DNA of 37,057 bases from a virus, in IMG/VR virus record IMGVR_UViG_3300028025_002021, positions 1 to 37,057 of that record, one strand, 5' to 3'. This document shows positions 3,437 to 34,222 of this stretch, one piece after another (the stretch's first letter is position 1; every line of letters begins with the position of its first letter). The notes beneath the pieces were generated by a model. The model did not search any database and was not told the origin of the DNA. It was given only the letters and a program-made list of their open reading frames with translations. The translations under genes and the position numbers were made by a program.

Positions 3437-3958
3437 ATGACAACAATTATTGCCGTACAATACGACAATGGTTTTGTATTTGCAGCAGACAGTCAAGTTA
3501 CTGCTAATGAAAGACCCTACATCCATGGGGATGTTAAGAAAATCACCGAAGACGGTGACTATGTAATTGCTGGTGCAGGAAATGCGAGACTTTGTGATGT
3601 TGTCCAATATGGATGGAACCTACCTTCATACGATGGAACTGACGGATACCGCTTTATGGTTAGCAAGGTTATTCCAGAAATAAAAAAAGCCCACGATACA
3701 ACTGGGACTACTTTAGAAAAAGATGATGGATTCTCATTCCTCATTGGTTTAGATAATAAGATTTACTATGTTGCTGAAGATTACTCGGTACTACGTACCG
3801 ATACAGGAATCTATGCAATGGGTACTGGTGGAGAACTTGCACTAGGTGCATACCATGCTGGTGCCACAATAAGACAGGCAATGCGTACTGCTATTAAGTT
3901 TGATGTTAATAGCGGTGGTAAAATACAGATTGTGAAACGAGGAAAGCAAAATGGCTAA
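3437..3958 (+). CDS. Proteasome beta/HslV-like N-terminal threonine peptidase
   Basis: Ntn-fold hydrolase resembling proteasome beta subunits and HslV. The protein begins M-TTIIAVQY; removing Met exposes Thr as the nucleophile. Counting that Thr as 1, Asp falls at 17 (AADS) and Lys at 33 (DVKKI), the exact T1/D17/K33 catalytic spacing of the family. MGTGGELALGAY matches the GSGG..A block of HslV, with Thr replacing Ser at mature position 129. DVNSGG matches the D166-x-x-S169-GG element. At 173 residues it is HslV-sized, with no propeptide. It sits right after the portal, where prohead maturation proteases usually lie, so capsid maturation is a reasonable inference. No partner unfoldase is visible. 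The family call is strong and the role is inferred. Confidence 0.85.
   Translation: MTTIIAVQYDNGFVFAADSQVTANERPYIHGDVKKITEDGDYVIAGAGNARLCDVVQYGWNLPSYDGTDGYRFMVSKVIPEIKKAHDTTGTTLEKDDGFSFLIGLDNKIYYVAEDYSVLRTDTGIYAMGTGGELALGAYHAGATIRQAMRTAIKFDVNSGGKIQIVKRGKQNG

Positions 3959-14750: not shown

Positions 14751-14751
<1 letters not shown>
14422..14751 (+). CDS. LtfC/p132/Gp6-like beta-sandwich protein
   Basis: A 109-residue all-beta protein. The pattern is [23 protein letters not shown], then [11 protein letters not shown], then [17 protein letters not shown] and a final RILEGRFIV. It matches my memory of the LtfC/p132/Gp6 beta-sandwich domain of phage tail-fibre assemblies. It lies immediately before the collagen-like fibre and overlaps it (TAATG), so a fibre-attachment or baseplate role is likely. 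The fold assignment is moderate; the function is inferred from context. Confidence 0.65.
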
Positions 14752-16214
<1,463 letters not shown>

Positions 16215-16236
16215 TGAAAATATACGGAGAAATAAA

Positions 16237-17274
16237 ATGAGAATACTCGGTGTTGTAGCAAAATTTGTTCGTAAAACCTCAACTGCTATTGCAGTTGCTT
16301 TTGACTTTTTCCCAGCAGTAGCCGTCTACCCTTGGTCTTCTACAGGCTTTGGTACGAAGTACGCAGACCCTAATACATCCGTTGGTGGTCCAGGCTTTAG
16401 TGTTTCTTTTAATCCAGCAGGAACTGATATTGCAATTACTCATAGTATGAATGCATTTATAAGCACTTACCCTTGGAACGCAGGGTTTGGCACAAAGTAC
16501 TCAAACCCTGCAACTGCAATTACTGGTACTGGTCGCGATGTCGCATTTAACCCACAAGGAAATGCTATCGCAGTTGCTCACGACATCACTCCATTTATAA
16601 GCACTTACCAATGGTCTTCTGGGTTTGGCACAAAGTACTCAAACCCTGCTACGTTACCTCCTGGCGCTGGTTATTCTGTTTCTTTTAATCCACAAGGAAG
16701 TTCAATAGCAGTTGGTCACAGCACTAGTCCATTTGTTAGTGCTTACCCTTGGAGTCTTCTCTCTGGCGGTTTTGGTACAAAATATCCTAACCCCACTGTG
16801 CTACCTACTGGTCTTGGTCGTGGTGTTTCTTTTAATCCAGCAGGAACTGTTATCGCAGTTGCTCATTCCATTTCTCCATTTATAAGTACCTACACTTGGG
16901 ATGCAACGCTTGGTGCAGGGTTTGGTACAAGGTACGCAAATCCTGCTACGTTGCCTGGTGGTACTGGTTATGGTGTTGCATTTAGCCCTGATTCAACCAC
17001 TATCGCAGTTACTCACGTTGGCTCTGCAAGAATTAGTGCTTACCCTTGGAACGCAGGGTTTGGTACGAAGTACGCAGACCCTGCTACATCATTACCTACT
17101 GGTTTTGCTACTAGTGTTTCTTTTGCTTCAGATTCAACTGCTATTGCAGTTTCTCACCAATCTTGGCCATATGTAACCGTTTACCAATGGTCTGCTGGCT
17201 TTGGTACGAAGTATTCAAATCCTGCTACAGCACCTTCGGCGCAGACTCAAGCAAATAAAGTCGCCTTCAACTAA
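16237..17274 (+). CDS. Seven-repeat beta-propeller, probable receptor-binding protein
   Basis: A 345-residue protein made almost wholly of a repeat of about 46-50 residues. Each copy carries [AT]YxW, then GFGT[KR]Y-x-[DN]P, then a V[SA]F and a hydrophobic strand with I-A-[IV]-x-H. There are seven GFGT[KR]Y copies. The last copy stops after VAF, and its missing strand is supplied by the N-terminus (STAIAVAFDFFPAVA), the classic overlapped closure of a ring. The repeats lack WD40 GH/WD signatures. Placed next to the collagen fibre, it could be a tip or receptor-binding domain. GGAG lies 8 bases before the ATG. Fold well supported; role inferred. Confidence 0.82.
   Translation: MRILGVVAKFVRKTSTAIAVAFDFFPAVAVYPWSSTGFGTKYADPNTSVGGPGFSVSFNPAGTDIAITHSMNAFISTYPWNAGFGTKYSNPATAITGTGRDVAFNPQGNAIAVAHDITPFISTYQWSSGFGTKYSNPATLPPGAGYSVSFNPQGSSIAVGHSTSPFVSAYPWSLLSGGFGTKYPNPTVLPTGLGRGVSFNPAGTVIAVAHSISPFISTYTWDATLGAGFGTRYANPATLPGGTGYGVAFSPDSTTIAVTHVGSARISAYPWNAGFGTKYADPATSLPTGFATSVSFASDSTAIAVSHQSWPYVTVYQWSAGFGTKYSNPATAPSAQTQANKVAFN
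16309..17274 (+). repeat. Seven tandem propeller repeats
   Basis: Seven coding repeats of roughly 135-150 bases. The segment encoding GFGTKY is the most conserved at the DNA level, including third positions in several copies, which suggests fairly recent duplication or gene conversion among repeats. Confidence 0.85.
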
Positions 17275-17295: not shown

Positions 17296-17589
17296 ATGAC
17301 AGAAATAACAGCACCAGAATTAACACCTAAAGAAGCAAGAGCATTAGAAGTTGCATCTTATGAAGCGAATATATTTACCTATCAAACTCTATTAGCCACA
17401 CTTGATGGCGATTGGGATAGCGATTTAATTCACCTTAAGGGTATTGAATCACAAGAAGCGGCTCGCCAGTGTCCCATGGATAGATTAGAACGCCTTGCAG
17501 TTCTACAGCAATATGACCAAGTAACTAACTTACTTAAGACTGAGATTGTTGAACGTGCAAAGGCTGCTGCAATTTTAGCAGTAATGTAA
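17296..17589 (+). CDS. 97-residue hypothetical protein, possible fibre-assembly helper
   Basis: A 97-residue acidic, helical protein (MTEITAPELTPKEARALEVA at the start). It lies 21 bases after the propeller gene with a good ribosome site (AAAGGA). Small helical proteins after fibre genes are often fibre-assembly chaperones, but no motif shows this here. It has one Cys, no membrane segment and two probable helices in the second half (DRLERLAVLQQYDQVTNLL). Confidence 0.6.
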   Translation: MTEITAPELTPKEARALEVASYEANIFTYQTLLATLDGDWDSDLIHLKGIESQEAARQCPMDRLERLAVLQQYDQVTNLLKTEIVERAKAAAILAVM

Positions 17590-17709: not shown

Positions 17710-18783
17710 ATGGTTAAGATTGCAGTCTATGCTATAGCCAAGAACGAGGCTAAGCACGTTAAGAGATGGGTAGATGCTACCCAAGGGGCAGATGTCCGAA
17801 TTGTCCTAGATACTGGGTCGGAAGATAACACCTATGACCTACTCCAGAAGTACCCCGTAGAAGCCCACAGAGCCACGCTAAGCGACTTTAGGTTTGATGT
17901 GGCTAGAAACATGGCACTAGATTTAGTACCATCTGACGTGGATGTGTGTGTCTCTCTAGATATGGATGAGATACCAGACCCAGACTTCTTTGACCTACTT
18001 CGTGAGGGCTGGAAGCCAGACACAGGCAGAGCCTGGGTGATGTGGGACACAGGTAATATATGGGCTAACAATCTACGTGTCCATGCTAGACATGGATATA
18101 AATGGAAGTACCCTTGCCACGAAATTACTGAATCAACTACTGGTGTAGATAATTGCATTGTTATTGAGACCGCAGTACGGCACGTACCGGATGACAGTAA
18201 GCCACGTAGTAGTTACTTACCACTATTAGAACTGGGACATAAAGAAGACCCAGATGACCACCGCATGTTGGTCTACTTAATACGTGAGTATTACTTTAGA
18301 GGTATGTGGCAAGAAGTTATTGACCACGGTAAGAAGTTAGAACTTCAAACTGGTGGTTGGAATATAGAACTTGCTCAATCATGGCGAGCAGTAGGCGAAG
18401 CCTACATGAAACTTGGTAATGAACGTGAAGGTCTGCACTGGTATCAGTGTAATGCTGAGACAGCACCGGAAGACCTAGAGGCTTGGATGCCCCTAGCATT
18501 TCATTACTACGAGAAGAAGATGTGGCATCACTGTTATCAGGCTGCCATTAAAGTAACCGAACTTTCCCTTGAGTCCAAAAGCCATCACATGGCTGACTCT
18601 ACAATGCCATGGAGAATGTACGACTTGCTTGCTATTGCTTGCTGGAACCTAGATAAAAAGGGTTCTGCCAAAAAGTATGCACGCAAAGCAGTCGAACTAA
18701 ATCCTGACGATGAACGCTTAGTTGGAAACTATGAGTTCATTATGCATCAAACAGTTAAACAGTTCAAGGATAATAATGCATAG
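17710..18783 (+). CDS. GT2-family glycosyltransferase with TPR-like C-terminus
   Basis: A 357-residue GT-A fold glycosyltransferase. Nucleotide-sugar site features are AIAKNEAKH (about 8-16), DTGSEDNT (34-41) and a metal-binding DMD at 84-86 (SLDMDE). From about residue 200 the chain becomes helical with TPR-like repeats (AQSWRAVGEAYMKLGNEREG, then SAKKYARKAVELNPDDE near the end). It sits within the tail genes and has its own leaderless promoter. It could glycosylate a virion protein such as a fibre, or modify host surface sugars to block superinfection; the sequence does not decide. Confident on family, not on substrate. Confidence 0.85.
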   Translation: MVKIAVYAIAKNEAKHVKRWVDATQGADVRIVLDTGSEDNTYDLLQKYPVEAHRATLSDFRFDVARNMALDLVPSDVDVCVSLDMDEIPDPDFFDLLREGWKPDTGRAWVMWDTGNIWANNLRVHARHGYKWKYPCHEITESTTGVDNCIVIETAVRHVPDDSKPRSSYLPLLELGHKEDPDDHRMLVYLIREYYFRGMWQEVIDHGKKLELQTGGWNIELAQSWRAVGEAYMKLGNEREGLHWYQCNAETAPEDLEAWMPLAFHYYEKKMWHHCYQAAIKVTELSLESKSHHMADSTMPWRMYDLLAIACWNLDKKGSAKKYARKAVELNPDDERLVGNYEFIMHQTVKQFKDNNA

Positions 18784-22137: not shown

Positions 22138-22953
22138 ATGCCAGCACGTAAATATAAATCAACCGCAATAGCAACAACTTTAGATGGCTCCATGGTATCT
22201 ACATCCAATGGTGCAACAGGAACCATGAAGGTTGCCAGTACTTCTAGTTTTCCAACTTCGTATCCATTCACATTGGTGATTGCACCAGACACTGTATCTG
22301 AAGAAATTGTTACCGTTACTGGAGCAGCAACTTCAGGTACGTATCCAGTAATTCGTGGTGAAGATGGAACCAATTCTGTAACACATTCCTCTGGCGATGC
22401 AGTGCGTCACATGATTACCGCTCGTGACTTACAAGAACCACAGGACCATATTTTTGCTACTACTGCTGTGCATGGTCTTCTTCCTGGGGTATCAGTAGCA
22501 CCAGCCGCTAACCCTACATTTACTGGAACAGTCGTTCTGCCAGCAGCAACATCTATTGGTCCAGTTACTTCTACTGAAATTGAATATTTAGATGGTGTAA
22601 CTTCTTATATTCAAACACAATTAAATCAAGCAAAACTTATTGTTCAATCAACAAATAAGACTGCAAACTATACCCTTGCTTCTGGTGACGAAGGAAACTT
22701 AATTAAGTTAGATGCTACAAGTAGTGCTATTGTTGTAACAGTACCTGTTGATGCAACCTTTAATTTTGCCATAGGTACACAAATTAATTTAATTGCTGTT
22801 AATAATGCTAATCCAATTACTATTGCTCCTGCATCAGGTACCGTTGCAGTTAATTCAACTCTAGGATTAAATTTTCGTTTACAGTGGTCATGCGCTACTT
22901 TAATAAAAATTGCAAGCAATACTTGGATTGCTGTTGGAGATTTAGTAGCGTAA
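22138..22953 (+). CDS. Second tail fibre/spike protein with shared C-terminal module
   Basis: A 271-residue fibre-like protein. The N-terminal 95 residues are beta-rich (GTMKVASTSSFPTSYPFTLV) and end in a phrase typical of phage structural proteins (VIRGEDGTNSVTHSSGDAV). APAANPTFTGTVVLP at about 122-136 is the short tail-fibre repeat phrase. The last 95 residues (from LIVQSTNKTANYTLASGDEG) align along their length with the C-terminus of the collagen-like fibre, sharing DATFNF-x-x-GTQINL, LQWS-type and NTW-x-x-GDL-x-A blocks. It sits between adaptor-like and nozzle-like genes. Confidence 0.75.
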   Translation: MPARKYKSTAIATTLDGSMVSTSNGATGTMKVASTSSFPTSYPFTLVIAPDTVSEEIVTVTGAATSGTYPVIRGEDGTNSVTHSSGDAVRHMITARDLQEPQDHIFATTAVHGLLPGVSVAPAANPTFTGTVVLPAATSIGPVTSTEIEYLDGVTSYIQTQLNQAKLIVQSTNKTANYTLASGDEGNLIKLDATSSAIVVTVPVDATFNFAIGTQINLIAVNNANPITIAPASGTVAVNSTLGLNFRLQWSCATLIKIASNTWIAVGDLVA

Positions 22954-33518: not shown

Positions 33519-33732
33519 AGTCTTGCTCACTATCATAGTCAGTTACCCACTCAAGGCGTTGCTCGTCTGTAATTATCTTCTCATAGTTACAGTCGGGACA
33601 ATAACTAACAGTAGTACCATCATCATCTGCCGGTACGTCTATGTCAATGACCTCGACACCACACTCAGGGCAATCCCAATCATCACTTCTATCACTGGTC
33701 AGCCAGCCTGACCCATGTAAACTATTGCTCAT
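33508..33732 (-). CDS. Zinc-ribbon protein (74 aa)
   Basis: A 74-residue acidic protein with a two-CxxC zinc ribbon: CPEC (21-24) and CPDC (45-48), separated by VIDIDVPADDDGTTVSY. I choose ATG 33732 because GGGAGG lies 8 bases upstream; the GTG/ATG codons at 33741 and 33738 overlap or crowd that site. The gene overlaps the WhiB stop by 11 bases. Probably a nucleic-acid- or protein-binding adaptor; the exact role is unknown. Confidence 0.7.
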   Translation of the reverse strand: MSNSLHGSGWLTSDRSDDWDCPECGVEVIDIDVPADDDGTTVSYCPDCNYEKIITDEQRLEWVTDYDSEQDYGR

Positions 33733-34222
33733 CTTCATCACCTCCCATATTAACTTCTACCTTTCCTATGTGTACTTGATAGTCTATCTCATTGACTCTG
33801 ATGCCACGCATGATGCGCTCTGACTCACGTTCAGTAGCAGTCATACCACCCCAGAACCCATACCTCTCACGTTTTATGCCCCACTCCCTGCACTCTTGTA
33901 CTACTGGACATGACAGGCACATACGCCTGAGGTATGCATGTTGTATCGGTTTGTTTGATGACCAGATTGTATCGTCTTGGTCTATCGGTGCTTCAACCTC
34001 TAGTCCATCATCATAGAAAGCCTGATGTCCAATGCCCTTGCATGATGCATTCTCAAAGTCAGGTAGTTCAAGCACCAAGTCACTCATCTTCTGGCGATTT
34101 CTGACTGGCATGGAGGCAGGGTTACCACCGTCTCGCGACCGGAACTCAAACAAATCTATCTTTGATTCGGCAGCGATTGACCTTACGTCAAGCATAACCT
34201 CATTGAAATACTCGCGAATCAT
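33722..34222 (-). CDS. whiB: WhiB-family iron-sulfur transcription factor
   Basis: A 166-residue WhiB-like protein. Cluster ligands are C61, C102, C105 and C111 (CLSCPVVQEC), followed by the family G[FVI]WGG turn as GFWGGMT at 122-128 and a charged helix (TERESERIMRGIR). The first spacing (40 residues between C61 and C102) is longer than in typical short WhiB proteins, and there are N- and C-terminal extensions, the latter acidic. WhiB proteins bind the host primary sigma factor and tune promoters. It is start-coupled with AGAGGA 5 bases upstream. It marks the host as actinobacterial. Confidence 0.88.
   Translation of the reverse strand: MIREYFNEVMLDVRSIAAESKIDLFEFRSRDGGNPASMPVRNRQKMSDLVLELPDFENASCKGIGHQAFYDDGLEVEAPIDQDDTIWSSNKPIQHAYLRRMCLSCPVVQECREWGIKRERYGFWGGMTATERESERIMRGIRVNEIDYQVHIGKVEVNMGGDEDEQ

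Follow-up and report, generated by a model that had tools for sequence, protein, structure and literature searches.

A predicted seven-bladed WD40/YVTN-like propeller beside a phage collagen-like tail fibre, with a closely linked small partner gene

The DNA that we analysed, referred to below as the window, comprises positions 1–37,057 of the IMG/VR virus record IMGVR_UViG_3300028025_002021. One of its genes encodes a protein predicted to form a closed seven-bladed propeller of WD40/YVTN type, which probably serves as a head that contacts the host from the distal end of a tail fibre or close to it, with the gene directly upstream supplying the shaft or tip. That phage propellers have been proposed as receptor binders, and that collagen–propeller fibres occur in extracellular contractile injection systems (eCIS), is already known; the strict pairing of this propeller with a small downstream gene is, as far as the literature that we searched shows, the unreported part. 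The features of the locus are given below in window coordinates, with the basis of each assignment in parentheses.

14751–16214, + strand: collagen-like tail fibre with a C-terminal tip domain (Pfam and PHROG matches, neighbours in relatives)
16226–16229, + strand: GGAG, a likely ribosome-binding site 7 nt 5' of the ATG (sequence)
16237–17274, + strand: seven-bladed beta-propeller ORF, 345 aa, stop included (sequence, predicted model, structure superposition)
16282–16362, + strand: blade 1 strands B and C and outer strand D, derived from the N-terminus, residues 16–42 (motif, predicted strands)
16393–16500, + strand: blade 2, residues 53–88 (motif, predicted strands)
16531–16638, + strand: blade 3, residues 99–134 (motif, predicted strands)
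16669–16785, + strand: blade 4, residues 145–183 (motif, predicted strands)
16816–16935, + strand: blade 5, residues 194–233 (motif, predicted strands)
16966–17073, + strand: blade 6, residues 244–279 (motif, predicted strands)
17107–17214, + strand: blade 7, residues 291–326 (motif, predicted strands)
17248–17271, + strand: closing strand A of blade 1, QANKVAFN, derived from the C-terminus, residues 338–345 (predicted strand 339–344; ring superposes over 16–345)
17296–17589, + strand: small protein of 97 aa, predicted propeller partner or chaperone (linkage to the propeller gene)

The seven GFGT[KR]Y repeats described in the first-pass annotation are all present, at residues 37, 83, 129, 178, 228, 274, and 321 (spacings of 46, 46, 49, 50, 46, and 47 aa), and DNA repeats of 132, 64, and 69 nt lie in register with them, confirming the periodicity. 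The closed seven-bladed propeller proposed there is likewise borne out, through a confident model, superpositions on known structures, and the quantisation of blade number among relatives described below. The AlphaFold2 model of the window protein, built from an alignment of 71 propellers (71 rows), has a pLDDT of 92 and a pTM of 0.91, and its predicted strands (seven each of A, B, and C, with an irregular outer D) form four-stranded blades arranged in a closed ring. In comparisons against the PDB (VIA-align, Foldseek list), closed seven-bladed WD40/YVTN crystal structures superpose on the model with Z of 35–39 at 1.9–2.0 Å, the ring aligning over residues 16–345: the designed seven-bladed 7bid gives Z 39.0 (rmsd 1.9 Å over 284 of 286 residues), the YVTN crystal structure 1l0q Z 35.5, and 2ymu, a naturally occurring repetitive WD40 protein, Z 34.8.

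The manner of closure differs in part from what had been described, namely a last repeat without its final strand and a matching strand, STAIAVAFDFF, from the N-terminus. The model does show a split-blade ("velcro") closure with an N-terminal contribution, but with other strand roles: the C-terminal QANKVAFN is the lone innermost strand A of blade 1, and N-terminal residues 15–42, a longer segment than STAIAVAFDFF alone, supply strands B and C together with the GFGTKY outer strand. The break in the ring therefore falls between strand A and strand B of a single blade, and the sharing of blade 1 by both termini (A from the C-terminus, B–D from the N-terminus) would lock it.

If the ring is closed at seven, blade number should be constrained among relatives, which we gathered with a whole-protein profile, a one-blade profile, searches of cellular genome contigs, and the neighbouring small gene; the one-blade profile was chosen so that ranking would be independent of blade number and seven would not be favoured. 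Repeat number proved to be almost constant and not freely variable: 126 of the 145 non-redundant complete ORFs carry a multiple of seven (7 blades in 98, 14 in 27, and 21 in one). The chance odds of 1/7 per protein ignore shared ancestry, and we give the resulting p-value no weight. The mean blade gap is 55 at the 7/8 and 14/15 boundaries and 47 at other boundaries, and in 25 of the 27 14-blade proteins the longest gap, a linker, falls exactly after blade 7, which fits two closed rings in tandem; this layout is seen directly in one contig protein (L006) and in MW202701. The exceptions include L001 (8 blades), L097 and L133 (6), L099 (5), L140 (5+4), and L121 (3), as well as L085 and others with 7+6. 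Several are highly repetitive genes that may have been collapsed in short-read assembly, and others are divergent proteins (POR1, ZRG1) that the repeat HMM under-counts. The 8-blade L001 was modelled with 7 folded blades and residues 1–58 at pLDDT <50, a result biased by the seven-bladed proteins that make up the other alignment rows and not counted as proof. An open solenoid or freely variable array with no closed ring would account readily for near-identical blades and for the few proteins with 3, 5, 6, 8, or 9 copies among the 145; given the multiples of seven, the linker that follows blade 7, and a closed model of high confidence, and with several of the exceptions possibly artefacts of assembly or of counting, we regard it as extremely improbable.

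The first-pass annotation held that the repeat is not WD40, Kelch, or NHL, and this stands only in part. Judged from the repeat sequences and column counts, the GH and WD dipeptides of strict WD40 repeats are missing, and no Kelch or NHL family is listed by Pfam for the window protein up to E 1. The protein exceeds no Pfam model's cut-off (the only WD40-related entry listed is ANAPC4_WD40, E 0.25, 12 bits), has no match in NCBIfam, and matches PHROGs weakly, to families without known function. Homology to the WD40/PD40 superfamily is nevertheless detectable by sequence, as the family profile matches 2ymu in the PDB at E=1.2e-31, and a two-propeller relative, P0006, matches Pfam PD40 at 48.2 bits (cut-off 20.9). 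In BFVD, the best structural matches come from uncultured phages and are labelled "WD40/YVTN repeat-like". On the basis of the 2ymu profile match and the structural superpositions, the gene product is WD40/YVTN-like both by sequence and by its modelled fold.

Among known structures, the prokaryotic, highly repetitive WD40 propellers (2ymu and the WRAP designs 7bid–7big) share the seven near-identical four-stranded blades (2ymu profile E=1e-31; Z 34–39), whereas the window protein lacks the GH and WD dipeptides, closes with one C-terminal strand, and lies in a phage tail-fibre locus. The YVTN surface-layer propeller 1l0q and seven-bladed lactonases share the fold and have a similar strand pattern, VAFSPDG..IAVAH......V.VY (Z 33–36), but the YVTN signature is absent from the window protein and no conserved catalytic pattern was seen. 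Proteins of the same family include A0A6J5SDD4 and others from uncultured Caudovirales ("WD40/YVTN repeat-like", 40% identity, found by structural match) and MW202701 ("wD40 repeat protein", 57% identity), all annotated by fold only.

The genomic setting connects the propeller to tail fibres. As had been noted, it lies beside a collagen fibre: the collagen-like ORF ends 22 nt upstream of the propeller ORF. An isolated phage, Pseudomonas phage POR1, has the same arrangement, with a "putative collagen-like protein" gene directly upstream of its propeller gene. More generally, most related loci have a relative of the fibre's tip domain ahead of the propeller gene: single-linkage clustering places the C-terminal tip domains of 65 of 82 upstream ORFs together. 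Only 9 of the 82 are collagen-like, and of 10 upstream ORFs sampled, 8 have matches among the tail families of PHROGs. Twelve non-redundant proteins carry a long N-terminal part ahead of the propeller in the same ORF. In L081 this part matches a tail-fibre PHROG and in L004 it ends, by eye, in a similar tip domain, while most of the fused N-terminal parts have no PHROG match. A second tail-fibre-like ORF lies at 22138–22953 of the window (PHROG 38058), a family also matched by the fibres that precede propellers in L003 and L020. On two cellular genome contigs (L091 and L099) a long Ala-rich part, common to both and ending GGFGSSRMGSSKSGS.RFW, comes after the propeller.

Across 809 blades, the entropy between blades of one protein is greatest in two loops, D-A (columns 10 and 12, at 1.88 and 2.03 bits) and B-C (columns 28 and 29, at 2.10 and 1.70 bits). 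The A-B and C-D loops of the opposite face differ between proteins and less within one: within-protein entropy at bottom-loop columns 19–22 and 39–41 is at most about 1.0 (columns 19, 21, and 22 about 1.0; columns 39–41, 0.3–0.7). A four-stranded meander brings the D-A and B-C loops to one face, making that face the likely binding surface, and the top face formed by these loops in all seven blades is the probable ligand surface; the loops differ from blade to blade while the remainder of each blade is kept alike. No reverse transcriptase family occurs among the window ORFs scanned, leaving variation driven by a diversity-generating retroelement (DGR) unsupported.

Taken as a receptor-binding head in the first-pass annotation, the propeller does find support for such a role in the tail-fibre context, the fusions, and the variability of one face; from these we infer its place in the virion and its binding, and consider receptor binding likely. 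Counting against a head, nothing in the window protein apart from the ring is an obvious virion-attachment domain, most of the fused N-terminal parts have no PHROG match, and the upstream fibre has a tip domain of its own, so that the propeller could be a separate component. The lack of an evident attachment domain and the usual neighbour, a fibre with its own tip domain, also favour an assembly or scaffold protein, or a virion decoration, with no receptor binding, and WD40 rings are general protein-interaction platforms. Such a role would not lead one to expect between-blade variation concentrated in the loops of one face, nor fusions in which longer proteins, one of them fibre-like, terminate in the ring at their C-terminus, and we judge it unlikely. 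Many propellers are enzymes, and a tail-borne lactonase- or sialidase-like enzyme modifying surface glycans would be in keeping with the 6-phosphogluconolactonases among the structural matches (Z about 33) and with a distant relative from Xanthomonas phage XacN1 that forms part of an ORF bearing a phosphodiesterase annotation. The invariant columns of the 71 relatives are, however, structural only (Y, W, F, G, P), and at no unique place is an acidic, basic, or His residue invariant, a result that argues against a conserved active site; the near-identical blades of some relatives (L011, L091) leave scant room for an asymmetric one; an enzymatic role is accordingly quite unlikely in our estimation. 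A host-contacting head thus remains our preferred reading.

Near-identical DNA in the repeat cores had been taken to suggest ongoing conversion. The likeness is real: where different blades of the window gene have an identical residue, they use the same codon in 65% of cases, versus 46% in codon shuffles (0/2000 reaching this value), and the longest exact DNA repeat in the gene is 29 nt, versus a shuffle mean of 16.6 (1% of shuffles reach 29). Positional orthology of blades between proteins is also lost, as comparison of the window protein with its relatives shows blades at the same position to be barely more similar than blades at different positions (for L011, 0.670 versus 0.663), with codon sharing of 0.31–0.52; blades are near-identical within L011 and within L091. 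Together, the likeness of the repeat DNA and the loss of positional orthology make it likely from sequence comparison that the blades have been homogenised or re-amplified, although amplification and conversion are indistinguishable here. Repeated amplification or conversion has been described for propellers in general (PMC9218822). The family offers a natural data set on the general question raised in that work, with blade number held at seven while blades re-amplify.

Directly downstream of the propeller gene lies the small gene, and the same order is found in 82 of 114 non-redundant cases. In a reciprocal search, with a subset of the small-protein alignment as query, 83 of 84 members adjoin a propeller gene and the remaining one lies at a contig edge, a count read from the best 80 loci, so that rare free-standing members may be missed. 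The family is marked by the motif RExEVxxYQINIDNYT, degenerate in the window copy, and has no consistent family in Pfam or PHROGs. Three related subtypes can be distinguished (the window gene at 17296–17589; L004, L056, L091, and others); divergent relatives, which profile comparison joins to the family with modest strength, are found after fused forms or ahead of the propeller gene in five loci. Two or more consecutive propeller genes occur on contigs L018, L082, L084, and L159, and those of L018 and L082 are separated by partner genes. Other small tail-fibre helpers exist, and by analogy with these and from the linkage, the small protein is probably a dedicated chaperone or adaptor that would fold the propeller or dock it onto the fibre. 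We propose more tentatively, as plausible rather than probable, that the propeller and the small "YQINIDNY" protein constitute an obligate two-gene host-recognition cassette, mobile between phages and borne on many different fibres. The small protein would then represent a new family of dedicated chaperones or adaptors, and the top face would be a binding surface diversified seven-fold, its shape kept by homogenisation.

Other tail-derived propellers provide a point of comparison. PhiKZ gp131C (4GBF, seven blades) and phi11 Gp45 (five blades) are tail-periphery propellers and proposed receptor binders (PMC4901313, PMC6115969). The present family resembles them as a phage propeller with a proposed receptor role, known here from genes and a model, but its profile gave no sequence match to either, and the phi11 propeller lies inside one trimeric fibre protein whereas the window family is mostly a separate ORF. 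The eCIS fibre likewise combines a collagen shaft and a propeller in a tail-derived fibre; there they form one protein of an injection system, in contrast to two adjacent phage genes here, with collagen-like upstream genes in 9 of 82 cases. We found no description of the module or the blade rule in the literature searched, nor of this propeller family in that on WD40 phage receptor binders. The family is present in 6 of 50,697 records of sequenced phages and is common in environmental contigs (hundreds in IMG/VR), pointing to a type of phage adhesin that is widespread but has hardly been cultured, and to which a partner gene is strictly linked.

Elsewhere in the window, a WhiB-like regulator (33722–34222, − strand) suggests an actinobacterial host. 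A glycosyltransferase with TPR repeats (17710–18783; PHROG 13126, E 1.7e-76) adjoins the fibre module, and an HslV-family peptidase (3437–3958; PHROG 1040, E 2.3e-34), possibly a prohead protease, lies between the portal and structural genes.
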